Source: Planctomycetota bacterium
GTDB lineage: Bacteria > Planctomycetota > SZUA-567 > H5-PLA8
Direction of reading: 5' to 3'
Assembly: GCA_023150555.1 (NCBI GenBank)
Contig: JAKLKQ010000032.1
Coordinates: 1 to 64,000, forward strand
Length of the DNA stretch: 64,000 nucleotides
Both the position numbers and the translations under genes were made by a program. This document shows, piece after piece, positions 22,237 through 58,204 of this stretch. The notes below the pieces were generated by a model. It had not been told where the DNA came from, did no database searches, and saw only the letters and a list, made by a program, of their open reading frames with translations. Each line of letters begins with the position of its first letter. The first letter of the stretch is position 1.

Positions 22237-22266
22237 TTGACGCCCGCCGAACGCGTGGGGTATGGT
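22237..22266 (+). promoter_or_regulatory. Sigma-70-type promoter of the MFS attenuator transcript
   Basis: TTGACG (22237-22242), 18-bp spacer, TATGGT (22261-22266). The predicted start of transcription falls on or within two bases of the leader ATG at 22273. The block GAAC...TGGGGTAT is shared with the trpS leader promoter. Confidence 0.7.
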
Positions 22267-22272
22267 TTCCTC

Positions 22273-22377
22273 ATGTCCTCAATTCGGCACGGCATAGCCT
22301 TCGCCCAGAAGGCCAAGAAGTTCTTCGGCAGGTGGTGGAAGCAGGCTTCCACCGTTCCGCCGAATTCCCATTTCTGA
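22273..22377 (+). CDS. Trp-codon leader peptide of the MFS-GNAT operon
   Basis: 34 aa: MSSIRHGIAF AQKAKKFFGR WWKQASTVPP NSHF. Too short for the ORF track. Tandem Trp codons (TGG TGG, 22333-22338) lie in the 5' arm of the protector hairpin. The ATG is 6 nt after the -10 box, so the mRNA is probably leaderless, as described for trpL in Sinorhizobium. It stops 28 nt before an intrinsic terminator. The arrangement matches the E. coli trpL logic (KGWWRTS), with ribosome stalling at Trp codons deciding termination. The peptide itself need have no function. Confidence 0.8.
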   Translation: MSSIRHGIAFAQKAKKFFGRWWKQASTVPPNSHF

Positions 22378-22413
22378 ACCCAACACGAAATTGGAAGAGG
22401 CGGAACGGAGCGG
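22334..22413 (+). promoter_or_regulatory. Trp attenuator with protector, antiterminator and terminator arms
   Basis: 1:2 protector is ggtggaag/cttccacc (22334-22341/22346-22353) and includes the Trp codons. 2:3 antiterminator is ccgttccgcc/ggcggaacgg (22352-22361/22399-22408), extended by ttcc/ggaa. 3:4 terminator is acggagcgg/ccgctccgt (22405-22413/22420-22428). The 2:3 arm shares bases with both the 1:2 and 3:4 stems, so the alternatives are mutually exclusive. Confidence 0.8.
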
Positions 22414-22436
22414 CTCAAACCGCTCCGTTTTTGTTT
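22405..22436 (+). terminator. Intrinsic terminator of the attenuator
   Basis: Perfect 9-bp stem acggagcgg/ccgctccgt, loop ctcaaa, then ttttgttt. It lies between the leader ORF and the MFS gene. Confidence 0.9.
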
Positions 22437-22461: not shown

Positions 22462-23670
22462 ATGCGGTGGGATGCGACGACGAGGGGGCTGGTGGGGCTG
22501 GCGCTGGCGCACGCGGTGCTGGAATGCAATTGCGGCGTGTGGCCGGTCTTCAAGCACCTCGCCGGGCTGGACCTGTACTGGGCCGGGGCGATTGCCACGG
22601 TCACGATGGCCACGGCGTCGATCCTGCAGCCGGCCTTCGGGCACTGGGCCGACGGCGGCCGCGCGCGCGCGATGGTGGTGTGGGGCACGGGCCTCACACT
22701 GCTGATGGCGCTGCTGGGCCCGCTGCACCGCGTGCTGTCGGATGCGCATCCGGCGTTCCTGTACGCCGCCTTCACGCTGCTGATCCTGACGGCGCGGATG
22801 GGGCATTCGATGTTCCATCCCGCCGGCGCGCTGCTGACGGGCGACCTCTTTCACGCCAAGCGCTCGGTCGGGCTGGGCTATTTCGCGGCGCTGGGGTGGG
22901 CGGGCTACGGCTTGAGCCAGGTCACGTTCAGCGAGGTCTACGTCGCGTCGGGCGGACATTCGGAATGGCTGCTTTTGTTGAGTGTGCCGCTGGTGGCGGC
23001 GGTCGCGCTGTGGTGCCCGCGCGACAAGGCGCACGAGGACTCCAACCGCGACAGCATTCGCACGAAGGCGCGCGCGTTCTGGGGCATGCGCCGCAGCGTG
23101 GGGCTGCTCTTCGCGGCCACGACGCTGGTCTGCGCGGCGAACATGGGGCTGTTCTTCCTCTTCCCCGAATTGCTCGCGTCGAAGGGCTACGCCGGCTGGG
23201 TGGTGAACGGCGGCGCGTTCGCCTTCCTGGTCGCTGGCATGGCGGCGGGCGTGCTGGTGGGCGGGCATCTGGCCGAACGCTTCGGCATGCGCGCGCTGCT
23301 CCTGCTGTCGGTGGCGGTGAACTTCGCGGTCTACGAGGCCTTCGTGCAGGTGGGCGCGGTGCCGGTGCCGCTCTTCCTGGCCATCTGCGCGGCGGCGGGC
23401 ACCTGCATGGGGCTGGTGCAGCCGCTGCCGGTGGCGCTGGGGCAGGCGCTGGAGCCGCGCAACGCCAGTTTGGTCAGCGGCCTGCTGATGGGCTGGACGT
23501 GGGTGCTGGGCAGTTTCTCGCCGCTGGTGGTGGCGTTCCTGGCGCGGGAACTGGGCACCAGCGACGCGCTGTCGGTGTACGGGCTGCTGAACCTGGCGGC
23601 GCTGGGCTGCACGATGGCGCTGGTGCGGGGGCTGCCAGGCCCTGCGGGATGCATGGAAAATACAGGATAG
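22462..23670 (+). CDS. MFS transporter, Fsr (fosmidomycin-resistance-like) group, under Trp attenuation
   Basis: 402 aa from ATG 22462 (GGGAG, 8 nt); the ORF-track TTG lies inside the terminator tail. About 12 hydrophobic segments. The motif ARMGHSMFHPAGALLTGDL resembles the Fsr branch of MFS transporters (F-HP-x-G region). The leader upstream makes expression respond to Trp-tRNA shortage, so I infer transport of tryptophan, a precursor or a related aromatic compound. The substrate is not readable from sequence. The GNAT gene follows after 11 nt and is probably in the same transcript. Confidence 0.88.
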   Translation: MRWDATTRGLVGLALAHAVLECNCGVWPVFKHLAGLDLYWAGAIATVTMATASILQPAFGHWADGGRARAMVVWGTGLTLLMALLGPLHRVLSDAHPAFLYAAFTLLILTARMGHSMFHPAGALLTGDLFHAKRSVGLGYFAALGWAGYGLSQVTFSEVYVASGGHSEWLLLLSVPLVAAVALWCPRDKAHEDSNRDSIRTKARAFWGMRRSVGLLFAATTLVCAANMGLFFLFPELLASKGYAGWVVNGGAFAFLVAGMAAGVLVGGHLAERFGMRALLLLSVAVNFAVYEAFVQVGAVPVPLFLAICAAAGTCMGLVQPLPVALGQALEPRNASLVSGLLMGWTWVLGSFSPLVVAFLARELGTSDALSVYGLLNLAALGCTMALVRGLPGPAGCMENTG

Positions 23671-54022: not shown

Positions 54023-56992
54023 ATGATTCGAACTGCCCGGCACCTGCTTCCAGCCCTGCTGTGGGCGGCCTGTTCGGCCTCGTTGGCCGGCGAATCGGCG
54101 TTCGACGAATTCAAAATCAAGCGCGAGGCGGTCTTCGAGTTCGCGAAGGCGCCCGCCGTTACGCGCGACGGCGATCAGATCGGCATCGCGTTCGAATCGA
54201 AGGGCTTCTGCGACGTGACCGTGGTGCTCGAGGACGCCGACGGCCGCATCGTGCGGCACCTCGCCAGCGGCGTGCTGGGCGACAACGCGCCGCCTCCTTT
54301 CCAGAAGAACGCGAAGGCGCAGCGCATCGTCTGGGACGGCAAGGACGACCAGGGCAAATACGTGGACGACAAGAACGGCCTGACCGTGCGCGTCGCCCTG
54401 GGGCTCAAGCCGCAGTTCGAGAAGAACCTCGACTGGTCGCCGTACAAGCGCGTCAGCGCGCAGTGCCCGCTGCTGGCCGTGTCCAAGGACGGCGTGTACG
54501 TCTACGAAGGCGAGGTCGTGGACAGCCTGCGCTGCTTCTCGCACGACGGCGCGTACAAGCACACCGTCTATCCCTTCGGCGCGAAGCAGCTGCCCGGAGT
54601 TCAGGGGCTTCACGAAGGCGTCTTTCCGCAGGAGGGCGCTCGGCTGCCGATGAAGGAAGGCTTCCACCAGGCCACGCTGCTGGGCAGCGGCACGAACGCC
54701 GGCTTCGACGAGAAGAGCGGCTATGGCGTAGACAAACACAACAACCACCACGGTTCGGTGATCGGAAACGCGGCGCAGGCTCTGGCTGTGGGCGGGGGGC
54801 GGATCGCGCTCGCTCGGCTTAGCCTGAACCGCCTGGCCGAAGACGGCACGACGGGCGGCCTGCCGCTGCACGGCCCCGAGGTGACGGTCGCCGCGCGTTC
54901 GCAGCAGTTCAAGTTTGGTAAGGAAGCCTTCCCGGTTTCCCCCTGGAGCGCCGCGCTGTCGCCGGACGGCAAGTGGGTCTACTTCGCGGGGTACGCCTAC
55001 CGGAACCACGGCCACTGGGACTGTCTGGACGTGGTGATGCGCATGCCCTTCGACGGCGAGAAGCCGCCCGAAGTCTTCGCCGGGGACCTGGACAGCACGA
55101 AGGGCTCGAAGAAGGACGGTAGCTTCCGCGGGGCGTCGTCGGTGGCTTGCGACGCCGCAGGGCGCGTGTACGTGTCCGATTACACCAACGACCGGGTGCA
55201 GGTCTTCGACGCAAACGGCAAGTTCCTGAATGCGATCCCCTCCCAGAAGCCCGCGGCGGTGCAGGTGCATCCGAAGACGGGCGAGATCTACACCTTCTCC
55301 TGGCTGCTGCACTGCCGGCACTTCGCGAACGAACTGGCCGCGCGCGAGAAGCAGCACGAGAAACCGTATGTGATCGATTCCAAGATGCGGCGCTTCGGTG
55401 CGTTCGACGATCCGAAGCCGAAGGCGGAGTTTGACCTGCCGCTGCCGAAGTTCAGCGGCAACGGGTACCTGGAATGGGCCTCCATCATGCCCGGCCCGAT
55501 GGCCAGCGTGGCCTTGGACGGCTACACCGAACCGCCGACGGTCTGGCTTGCGCAGATGAACGCGAAGTCGCTGGCGGTTTCCGGCGGGCACCTGGCCCAC
55601 GGCGCGCAGCTGATCGGAGCCGCTCGAAAAGAAAACGACACGAGGTGGGGCAGCAATTCGATCGTGCTGATGCAGGAGAAGAACGGCAAGCTGGCGCCCG
55701 TGCGCAATTTCGAGGACGAGGTCAAGGCTGCGGTACTGCGCAGCACCCCGCCCAAGACCTCGCGCCAGCGCCTGTACGTGCATCCGGTCACGGGGCGGCT
55801 GTACGTGGGCGAGGGCGACAGCGGTATCGTCGAGAAGGCCGTGCAGCAGCTGCTCTGGTTCGACCCGGACTCGGACAAGAAGGGCCTGCTCGAGCTGCCG
55901 CTTTCGGCGGAAGACATCGGCTTCGACCGCGAAGGCCGCCTGTACTGCCTGGGCTTCAACGAGATCGGGCGCTTCGAGTTCCCCTCGATGCGCGAGGTCC
56001 CCTGGGACTACGGCGAGGAACGCGGCAAGGTGGCCTTCGGCGACGGGCGCACCGCGAACCTGATGGCCGGCCTGGTCATCCCGCACAACGGCGGGCTGTG
56101 GCACCGGCCCGGCTTCGGCATCAATGCGAAGGGCGACATCGCCATCGGCAGCCTGGTCACCGGCGGGATGATCGAAGCGCGGGTGCTTACGGAAGGCAAC
56201 GTGGGGGACCGTGCCGCGCGCAAGTGGATGCCGCCCATGTACCCGGGACGCATCGTTGACCACCGCGCCACGACCGCGATCAACATCTGGAACCGCCACG
56301 GCGAACTGATCAAGGAAGACGCCGTGCCGGGCCTAGGTGTCGTCGACGGCATCGGACTAGACGAGGACAACAACCTCTATTGCATGCTCGGCACCACGCG
56401 CATGCTGGACGGCAAGCCGTTCGTCACGCACGCCACCGGGACGATGGCCTGCTTCCCGGCCGGGCGCGCGAAGCTGGTTACCTCGGGCAAGGGCGCCAAG
56501 ATCCCGCTGCCGGAGGCCGAACGTCCCGGCCGCAAGCCCGACTTGGACCTGGGCGGCGCCGCGTGGGTGCAGGGCACGTCCTGGCTCTATGGCGGGGTGG
56601 GTTGGGCCGGCGGCATGGCGGCAGGGTCCAGCGGCTGCTGCTGCTGGAACAACCGCTTTGCGTTCGACTACCTGCGGCGCAGCTTCGTGCCGGAGACCAG
56701 CCACTACAGCGTCGCGGTGCTGGACGCGAACGGCAACCTGATCACGCGTGTCGGGCGCTTCGGCAACGCCGACGACGGCCTTCCGCTGGCCAGAGAAACC
56801 GCCGCGCCTCAAGCGCGCAGCATCGGCGGCGACGAAGTGGCGCTCTTCCACAACAACTACGTCGGCACCTTCACCGACCGGCGGCTGTTCATAGCCGACG
56901 GAGGCAATTTCCGCATCCTCAGCGTGAAGCTGGGCTACCATCAGGAAGCGAAGATCGCGCTCAAGGACGTGCCGGAGGGCGCGGGCAAGTAG
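54023..56992 (+). CDS. Large secreted NHL/beta-propeller protein
   Basis: 989 aa from ATG 54023 (AAGGAG, 7 nt). Signal peptide HLLPALLWAACSASLA. Begins with a FlgD-like module (IAFESKGFCDVTVVLEDADGRIVRHLASG ... RIVWDGKDDQGK), then blades typical of NHL or SMP-30-type propellers (GRVYVSDYTNDRVQVFDANGKFLNAI, GRLYVGEGDSGIVEK, GRLYCLGFNEIGRFEF, LFIADGGNFRILSVKLGY). A CCCW motif (GSSGCCCWNNRFAF) is notable near the C-terminus. Probably an extracellular or surface protein; ligand unknown. Confidence 0.85.
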   Translation: MIRTARHLLPALLWAACSASLAGESAFDEFKIKREAVFEFAKAPAVTRDGDQIGIAFESKGFCDVTVVLEDADGRIVRHLASGVLGDNAPPPFQKNAKAQRIVWDGKDDQGKYVDDKNGLTVRVALGLKPQFEKNLDWSPYKRVSAQCPLLAVSKDGVYVYEGEVVDSLRCFSHDGAYKHTVYPFGAKQLPGVQGLHEGVFPQEGARLPMKEGFHQATLLGSGTNAGFDEKSGYGVDKHNNHHGSVIGNAAQALAVGGGRIALARLSLNRLAEDGTTGGLPLHGPEVTVAARSQQFKFGKEAFPVSPWSAALSPDGKWVYFAGYAYRNHGHWDCLDVVMRMPFDGEKPPEVFAGDLDSTKGSKKDGSFRGASSVACDAAGRVYVSDYTNDRVQVFDANGKFLNAIPSQKPAAVQVHPKTGEIYTFSWLLHCRHFANELAAREKQHEKPYVIDSKMRRFGAFDDPKPKAEFDLPLPKFSGNGYLEWASIMPGPMASVALDGYTEPPTVWLAQMNAKSLAVSGGHLAHGAQLIGAARKENDTRWGSNSIVLMQEKNGKLAPVRNFEDEVKAAVLRSTPPKTSRQRLYVHPVTGRLYVGEGDSGIVEKAVQQLLWFDPDSDKKGLLELPLSAEDIGFDREGRLYCLGFNEIGRFEFPSMREVPWDYGEERGKVAFGDGRTANLMAGLVIPHNGGLWHRPGFGINAKGDIAIGSLVTGGMIEARVLTEGNVGDRAARKWMPPMYPGRIVDHRATTAINIWNRHGELIKEDAVPGLGVVDGIGLDEDNNLYCMLGTTRMLDGKPFVTHATGTMACFPAGRAKLVTSGKGAKIPLPEAERPGRKPDLDLGGAAWVQGTSWLYGGVGWAGGMAAGSSGCCCWNNRFAFDYLRRSFVPETSHYSVAVLDANGNLITRVGRFGNADDGLPLARETAAPQARSIGGDEVALFHNNYVGTFTDRRLFIADGGNFRILSVKLGYHQEAKIALKDVPEGAGK

Positions 56993-57005: not shown

Positions 57006-57034
57006 TTGACGAATTCGCGAACATGGGGTATCGA
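57006..57034 (+). promoter_or_regulatory. Promoter of the trpS leader transcript
   Basis: TTGACG (57006-57011), 17-bp spacer, TATCGA (57029-57034). Predicted transcription start coincides with the leader ATG at 57042. A near-perfect inverted repeat, catggggtatcgatacccccatg (57022-57044), spans the -10 box and start. Confidence 0.7.
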
Positions 57035-57041
57035 TACCCCC

Positions 57042-57149
57042 ATGGCAACGCTACCCGTCCACACCGCGAGCTTTTGGGCCTGGCGACGGGCCGCGGGCAC
57101 CGCGTTCGGAAACGCGGCGGCCGTGGCCCTCTCGTTTACGGGGAGTTGA
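57042..57149 (+). CDS. Trp-codon leader peptide of trpS
   Basis: 35 aa: MATLPVHTAS FWAWRRAAGT AFGNAAAVAL SFTGS. Too short for the ORF track. Two Trp codons flank one Ala (TGG GCC TGG, 57075-57083), just before a long hairpin (57086-57124) formed by the rest of the ORF. The ATG is 7 nt after the -10 box, so the transcript is probably leaderless. An intrinsic terminator lies between it and trpS. Confidence 0.75.
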   Translation: MATLPVHTASFWAWRRAAGTAFGNAAAVALSFTGS

Positions 57150-57183
57150 CCGAGGGTACTTTCAGTCTGCGCTAACGTAGCGG

Positions 57184-57213
57184 CCCCGGGACGATGCCCG
57201 GGGTTTTTTGTTT
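57184..57213 (+). terminator. Leader terminator upstream of trpS
   Basis: Stem ccccggg/cccgggg with loop acgatg, then ttttttgttt. A competing antiterminator is possible through cgggg (57139-57143) with ccccg (57184-57188), 5 bp, which is mutually exclusive with the terminator. Confidence 0.85.
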
Positions 57214-57229
57214 CGGAGAATTTTCAAAA

Positions 57230-58204
57230 ATGCCCGTCCGCATCCTTTCCGGCGTTCAGCCTTCTGGAAAGTTGCACCTCGGCAACTACTTCGGCGCGAT
57301 CAAGCAGCACATCGAGCTTCAGGAAAGGCCGGAGCACGAGCCCTACTACTTCATCGCCGACTTCCACGCCATGACCACGGTTCAGGACGCCGAGCGCATG
57401 CGCGAATACATCCGCGGTGTCGCGCTGGACTACCTTGCCCTGGGCCTGGACCCCAAGCGCGCGACGTTCTTCCGCCAGTCCGACGTGCCGGAAGTGACGG
57501 AACTGGCGTGGATGCTCAGCGCCGTCACCGGCATGGGCCTGCTGGAGCGGGCGCACAGCTACAAGGACAAGGTCGCGAAGGGCATCAAGCCCAGCGTGGG
57601 GCTCTTCTATTACCCCGTGCTGATGGCCGCCGACATCCTGATCTACAAGCCCAAGTTCGTGCCGGTGGGGCAGGACCAGGTCCAGCACATCGAGATGACC
57701 CAGGACATGGCCCAGTACTTCAACAACACCTACAAGTGCGAGGTGCTGGTGCGCCCCGAGCCGCGCCTGGACAAGGGCGCCAAGGTCCCCGGCACCGACG
57801 GCGAGAAGATGAGCAAGTCCTACGGCAACACCATCGACCTGCAGCTCGAGGGCAAGGCGCTGAAGAAGGTCGTGATGGGCGTGAAGACCGACAGCACGCC
57901 CGTCGAGGACCCCAAGGACCCGGCGAAGTGCAACGTCTTCGCGCTGTACCAACTCGTGGCGAGCGACGCCGAGCAGGCCGCGCTGGCCGAACGCTACAAG
58001 GCCGGCGGGCTGGGCTACGGCGAGGCCAAGAAGCTGCTGCTCGAGAAGCTCGACGCGTATTTCGCGTCCTACCGGGCGAAAAGAAATGACTTGGAGCAGA
58101 ACCTCGACTACGTCGATTCCGTTCTAAGGGACGGGGCCGAACGCGCCCGCAAGGTCGCGCGCGCGACCCTGGACGAGTGCAAGAAGGCGGCGGGACTGCT
58201 TTGA
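57230..58204 (+). CDS. trpS: Tryptophanyl-tRNA synthetase
   Basis: 324 aa from ATG 57230; GGAG lies about 11 nt upstream. Class I synthetase: HIGH-type PSGKLHLGNYFGA near the N-terminus, QVPVGQDQ-like VPVGQDQVQHIEMTQDMAQYFN, and KMSKS in DGEKMSKSYGN. Charges tRNA-Trp. Expression is apparently gated by a Trp-codon leader and terminator. Confidence 0.96.
   Translation: MPVRILSGVQPSGKLHLGNYFGAIKQHIELQERPEHEPYYFIADFHAMTTVQDAERMREYIRGVALDYLALGLDPKRATFFRQSDVPEVTELAWMLSAVTGMGLLERAHSYKDKVAKGIKPSVGLFYYPVLMAADILIYKPKFVPVGQDQVQHIEMTQDMAQYFNNTYKCEVLVRPEPRLDKGAKVPGTDGEKMSKSYGNTIDLQLEGKALKKVVMGVKTDSTPVEDPKDPAKCNVFALYQLVASDAEQAALAERYKAGGLGYGEAKKLLLEKLDAYFASYRAKRNDLEQNLDYVDSVLRDGAERARKVARATLDECKKAAGLL

Follow-up and report, generated by a model that had tools for sequence, protein, structure and literature searches.

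The window, i.e. the whole 64,000-nt stretch of DNA analysed, belongs to an uncultured Planctomycetota bacterium whose genome is known as a MAG. On its forward strand, positions 57230–58204 encode the tryptophanyl-tRNA synthetase TrpS (324 aa; TIGR00233, 280.8 bits at a cut-off of 176.75), which shares 72–80% identity with its orthologues in the family and has its closest relatives in Planctomycetota bacterium TGS_PLA7 and NC_groundwater_1043. The gene is preceded by a Shine-Dalgarno sequence, GGAGA, read at 57215–57219, and SD-like purines are present before trpS in the family genomes G001 and G005 too. Further upstream, a gene for an NHL-repeat protein (Pfam) ends at 56992 and is co-directional with trpS. 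The interval between both genes holds a promoter, a short leader ORF with Trp codons, a hairpin and an intrinsic terminator, all on the forward strand, and these parts, their conservation and their spacing are read directly from the sequence.

Leader ORF, promoter and distribution

The leader ORF (57042–57149) has 35 codons, encodes the peptide MATLPVHTASFWAWRRAAGTAFGNAAAVALSFTGS and contains the putative regulatory codons UGG-GCC-UGG at 57075–57083, with the two UGG codons at 57075–57077 and 57081–57083. A first-pass annotation of this DNA had described a leader ORF with TGG GCC TGG, and such an ORF is indeed present. The annotation had made its case depend on the conservation of frame and Trp content across relatives; both are kept in three further genomes of the family, where the Trp motifs read WIWRW, WIWRR and WAWRR. 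Overall, trpS is preceded in four genomes by a leader ORF with clustered codons (W-x-W) for the amino acid handled by the downstream gene. The stretch UGG-(GCC/AUC)-UGG-CGA-(C/U)GG-GCC-GCG is shared by all four leaders, with only the middle codon varying in UGG-(GCC/AUC)-UGG-CGA, while the four peptides (that of the window, MKFQMSRWIWRWAANSVLRRAERVAHSRGG, MRYEMPSFPRSWIWRRAAHSALRRAWSVALFPMG and MNRMSGRPRTSWAWRRAAGQAPLRAGREAIFATR) are not conserved outside WxWR[RW]AA. The stop codon follows the first Trp codon after 23 codons in the three relatives and after 24 in the window.

The -35 element TTGACG (57006–57011) is the same, at the same place, in four out of four family leaders. It is followed, after a 17-nt spacer, by the putative -10 element TATCGA (57029–57034), the position of which matches its counterparts TACTAT (G001), TACGGT (G005) and TACTAT (G006), with spacers of 16–17 nt. 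A GGG ahead of the -10 element is invariant in the four leaders. By consensus, the -10 element of the window leader is weak, and a strict scan for sigma-70 promoters gave no full-consensus match at this leader. From the conserved promoter elements only, transcription is predicted to start around 57040–57042. Counted from the last base of the -10 element, the leader ATG follows at 7 nt in the window and at 6 nt in both G005 and G006, and no Shine-Dalgarno sequence is seen ahead of it in these three. Since the ATG sits 6–7 nt after the -10 element in three of the four leaders, where transcription normally starts, the promoter geometry indicates that the leader ORF of the window is probably leaderless. 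G001 differs in having a Shine-Dalgarno sequence (AAGAGGTG) and an ATG 16 nt after the -10 element, and is hence not leaderless. According to a comparative study (PMC5397173), species with few SD-led genes, including Planctomycetes, have sequence features that point to initiation without a leader or with the help of S1. A loose search for the promoter-to-ATG pattern performed no better than the control in most genomes.

The leader unit was found before trpS in four of the seven family genomes (the window genome, G000, together with G001, G005 and G006) and is absent there in G002, G003 and G004. Among the four, the promoter, the Trp codons, the hairpin, the position of the stop codon and the terminator are kept, and most other bases have changed. 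The gene 5' of the unit encodes a membrane-like protein without a name in G001 and a GH32 glycosidase (Pfam) in G005, both on the strand opposite to trpS. As far as could be told, these genes and the NHL-repeat gene of the window are mutually unrelated, therefore the promoter, leader and terminator travel as a unit with trpS. Moreover, because the upstream gene in G001 and G005 points away from trpS, the terminator there belongs to the leader. G003, in which trpS lies on the minus strand (L004), is in the same genus as G006 and has a different upstream region without the leader, so the attenuator has been gained or lost within one genus.

Beyond the family the unit was not recovered. The leader was missing in 77 of the 80 trpS loci examined, and the three matches were those same family leaders. 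Covariance modelling, which the first-pass annotation had proposed, pointed the same way: with a 204-position leader model, the only full-length matches in 392 genomes of the phylum were the four family trpS leaders (167–201 bits). The best match in another genome (locus L140, 28 bits) has neither trpS nor a W-leader context and was rejected as chance, and a further candidate, L132, turned out to be an ordinary terminator.

Hairpin, terminator and candidate antiterminator

A strong hairpin, hereafter 1:2 (57088–57129), starts 4 nt after the second Trp codon. Its base, which is invariant across the four leaders, is formed by GGGCCGCG (57088–57095) and CGUGGCCC (57122–57129), above which the stem is extended. 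In the four sequences, 93% of the cells of this hairpin are paired and five pairs have changed on both sides. The intrinsic terminator GGCCCCGGG-ACGATG-CCCGGGG-TTTTTT (57182–57209) lies between the leader ORF and the ATG of trpS at 57230 and is likewise conserved: the stem GCCCCGGG...CCCGGGGTTTTTT occurs in the window, G001 and G005, and the same stem with TTTTCTTTT in G006. The distance from the stop codon to the terminator is 29–33 nt in the four leaders. Both the long hairpin directly after the Trp codons and the terminator with six T before trpS had been described in the first-pass annotation, and they are present as claimed. By eye, a pyrimidine-G step is also seen 10–11 nt past hairpin 1:2 in the window (within 57129–57140), G005 and G006, i.e. 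in three of the four leaders. By analogy with the hairpin-type pause sites that it resembles, it may serve to synchronise polymerase and ribosome.

Directly behind the stop codon of the window leader, ACCNNAGGGC can pair with the 5' arm of the terminator, GCCCCGGG. The candidate antiterminator strand (segment 3), ACCGAGGGU at 57149–57157, overlaps the last base of the stop codon, and the corresponding segments of the relatives are ACCGCAGGGC (G001), ACCUGAGGGC (G005) and GCCUGGGC (G006). Each of the four mimics the 3' arm of its terminator. This pairing had been spotted by eye in earlier single-sequence folds and was not given to RNAalifold, which for the four leaders returned a consensus containing hairpin 1:2 together with the helix between the post-stop segment and the terminator 5' arm. 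For hairpin and antiterminator helices combined, 90.5% of the cells are paired, against 24–51% when slid by one to three columns, and none of 500 shuffles matched any of the five measures. Both-side changes occur in seven pairs of the four sequences, five of them in hairpin 1:2 and only two in the antiterminator. Compared with random 16-mers of the genome, the post-stop complementarity has p-values of 0.057, 0.056, 0.008 and 0.033 (about 5e-4 combined, for a place chosen post hoc and sequences that are related).

The effect of a ribosome was modelled by folding only the RNA downstream of it, with the 3' edge of the ribosome set at P-site +15, and by taking the gap between the best fold without and the best fold with the terminator. 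With the ribosome at the first Trp codon, this gap is 7.1, 1.0, -0.3 and -0.6 kcal/mol in the four leaders; with the ribosome at the stop codon, it is 13.9, 9.5, 8.7 and 7.7 kcal/mol. The E. coli trp leader, used as a textbook control, has gaps of 3.5 (stalled) and 13.9 kcal/mol (stop). The stall gaps do not singly beat those of shuffled upstream sequence (fractions of 0.76, 0.26, 0.18 and 0.06). The modelled energies are thus compatible with a switch and are no proof of one, as shuffled upstream sequence often gives similar stall values. The antiterminator of the window leader is the weakest of the four (gap of 7.1 kcal/mol), and the RNA of G006, when the terminator is disallowed, folds best into another long-range structure. 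The exact antiterminator is the least certain part of the scheme.

Proposed switch and alternative explanations

Taken together, trpS is very probably controlled by a Trp-codon attenuator. That it is a ribosome-mediated transcription attenuator which increases the expression of trpS upon a shortage of Trp-tRNA(Trp) is likely as well, on the basis of the sequence and with the antiterminator marked as uncertain. As for the transcription start and leaderless initiation, we infer the stalling and the direction of regulation. Transcription would start at or next to the leader AUG, and 70S ribosomes would initiate on the leaderless mRNA. When Trp-tRNA is ample, the ribosome would pass UGG-GCC-UGG, unwind hairpin 1:2 and arrive at the stop codon, where it would cover about 9 nt behind it, that is, most or all of segment 3 (ACCNNAGGGC). 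With segment 3 masked, the terminator GCCCCGGG:CCCGGGG would form and transcription would end before trpS. When Trp-tRNA is scarce, the ribosome would stall at the first UGG. With the A site on this codon, the edge of the ribosome ends where hairpin 1:2 begins, which leaves the hairpin intact; it could then form at the leading edge and hold its 3' arm (GGCCCU) off segment 3. The free segment 3 would pair with the terminator 5' arm, allowing the polymerase to read into trpS. This wiring through a post-stop antiterminator is plausible and falls just short of being probable. If true, completion of the leader rather than the state of hairpin 1:2 would signal termination, and the post-stop antiterminator can be tested against the 2:3 switch known from textbooks.

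The closest competitor is an attenuator of the classical E. coli type, in which a stalled ribosome would mask the 5' arm of hairpin 1:2, freeing its 3' arm GUGGCCCU to pair with AGGGC behind the stop codon as a 2:3 antiterminator. The sequences of G000, G001 and G005 allow a GGCCCU:AGGGC-type match of 4–6 bp, and a ribosome whose A site holds the second UGG covers much of the hairpin 5' arm. However, a ribosome with its A site at the first UGG leaves the hairpin intact, and the 2:3 helix overlaps no terminator base and so cannot prevent the terminator; it would rather compete with the terminator arm for segment 3. The 5-bp antiterminator mentioned in the first-pass annotation, where it had no position, meets the same difficulty. 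The sole helix of that kind that was found joins the hairpin 3' arm to the post-stop segment (GGCCCUC:GAGGGU); it cannot by itself be the antiterminator, because it does not overlap the terminator, and in the proposed scheme the short helix between GGCCCU of the hairpin arm and segment 3 would counteract antitermination. The classical type is therefore considered unlikely. The earlier proposal that stalling at Trp codons controls trpS is supported by sequence conservation in its principle, and its switching scheme had to change, with the antiterminator now placed behind the stop codon and the start now probably leaderless.

A chance ORF might also be considered, as open frames are plentiful in GC-rich DNA and the upstream gene of the window is co-directional; the terminator would then merely punctuate upstream transcription, and trpS would be expressed from an unregulated promoter. 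This is very unlikely: the leader persists behind differing upstream genes, which are divergent in G001 and G005, the promoter is located 5' of the terminator, and the Trp codons, the stop position and the hairpin are conserved. Furthermore, such an ORF precedes only 2 of 36 terminators, as described below. A T-box binding tRNA(Trp), or a different riboswitch with direct, translation-independent sensing of uncharged tRNA, comes to mind since T-boxes classically control trpS in Firmicutes, and the hairpin contains GGGCACCGCG, which is superficially T-box-like. These letters are not conserved in the other three leaders, whereas the ORF with its Trp codons is, and Rfam gave no T-box or Trp_leader match, neither at gathering score over the entire window nor when 351 bases around the leader were scanned permissively; the low-scoring matches, among them anti-hemB at 19 bits, were dismissed as chance. 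Direct tRNA sensing is thus extremely improbable. Finally, the released leader RNA or peptide might additionally act in trans, as reported for peTrpL in S. meliloti (PMC7298713). Termination would yield a structured RNA of about 170 nt in which a 35-aa peptide is encoded; this peptide is not conserved beyond WxWR[RW]AA in the four genomes, and a trans-acting role is considered highly unlikely.

Related leaders and known attenuators

Most descriptions of amino-acid attenuation come from Proteobacteria and Actinobacteria, and a search of open-licence papers found no Trp attenuator in Planctomycetota. The E. coli trp leader (trpL; Rfam Trp_leader) resembles the window leader in its neighbouring Trp codons, the hairpin after them, the intrinsic terminator and comparable energies in the stalled and stop states. 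It differs in using a 2:3 antiterminator, in which the 5' arm of the terminator itself serves as segment 3, whereas the candidate strand in the window lies behind the stop codon and would be masked by the terminating ribosome. The auxiliary trpRS1 of S. coelicolor has reportedly been studied as a case of ribosome-mediated attenuation. Trp-codon attenuators have been predicted before trpS in Streptomyces, e.g. S. avermitilis trpS2 (PMC1262725), and in S. lividans trpL2-trpS the leader MMTRTCTQLWRAA, with one Trp codon, was reported to be leaderless (PMC8079986). The S. avermitilis and S. lividans systems act on the same gene and likewise have a hairpin preceded by a short leader ORF with Trp codons, but they belong to another phylum and have another leader peptide; by eye, the S. 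lividans peptide as published has only W-R around the Trp codon in common with that of the window. S. lividans trpL2 further has a single Trp codon and no U-tract, whereas the planctomycete leader combines W-x-W with a conserved hairpin after these codons, a perfect GC terminator followed by U6 and a candidate post-stop antiterminator. The leaderless polycysteine attenuators of mycobacteria (Canestrari et al. 2020, cited in PMC13236596) are reportedly alike in having a short leaderless ORF whose codons sense an amino acid, which is Cys and not Trp. No conserved terminator hairpin was found upstream of mycobacterial cys operons (PMC1262725). The attenuation principle is known from other bacteria; what looks new is the bacterial group, the leaderless layout and the wiring.

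A second leader of this type lies in the same window at 22238–22434, before an MFS gene (22462–23670). It reads TTGACG-N18-TATGGT-N6-ATG, followed by a leaderless-type ORF encoding MSSIRHGIAFAQKAKKFFGRWWKQASTVPPNSHF, and is similar to the trpS leader in its promoter-to-ATG layout, Trp codons (here WW), hairpin and terminator. Its antiterminator is a textbook 2:3 helix, CCGUUCCGCC:GGCGGAACGG, overlapping the terminator CGGAGCGG..CCGCUCCGTTTTT, while the trpS candidate is found behind the stop codon. As no homologue of the MFS gene turned up in the six other genomes of the family, the gene may encode a Trp-linked transporter that was acquired. In the 986 kb of the window genome that were surveyed (about 15%), 36 strong terminators were counted, and a short ORF with W-x-W or WW within 220 nt before the terminator was found for two of them, the trpS and MFS leaders of the window. 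Both have a TTGACG promoter and an ATG 6–7 nt after the -10 element.

Tentatively, it is possible that the family uses leaderless Trp leader ORFs for trpS, the MFS transporter and perhaps trpE, with the trpS switch rewired relative to E. coli such that the antiterminator lies behind the stop codon, hidden by the terminating ribosome. A Trp attenuator in Planctomycetota would mean that transcription and translation are tightly coupled in this phylum, and 70S initiation on leaderless leader ORFs would be fast enough to control the polymerase.

Short ORFs are also seen before trpE in the window genome (L115, 1235–1291, plus strand; MASRSCSRTRRFARPVAW) and in G001 (L112, about 3130–3074, minus strand; MTSGPCTHTRRLSRPVAW). 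They start 7–9 nt after a -10-like element, and their single Trp codon is the last one before UGA, followed by a hairpin that includes the Trp codon and by a run of T6–T7. From its sequence, this arrangement is a possible attenuator in which the stalled ribosome would sit on the terminator arm itself.
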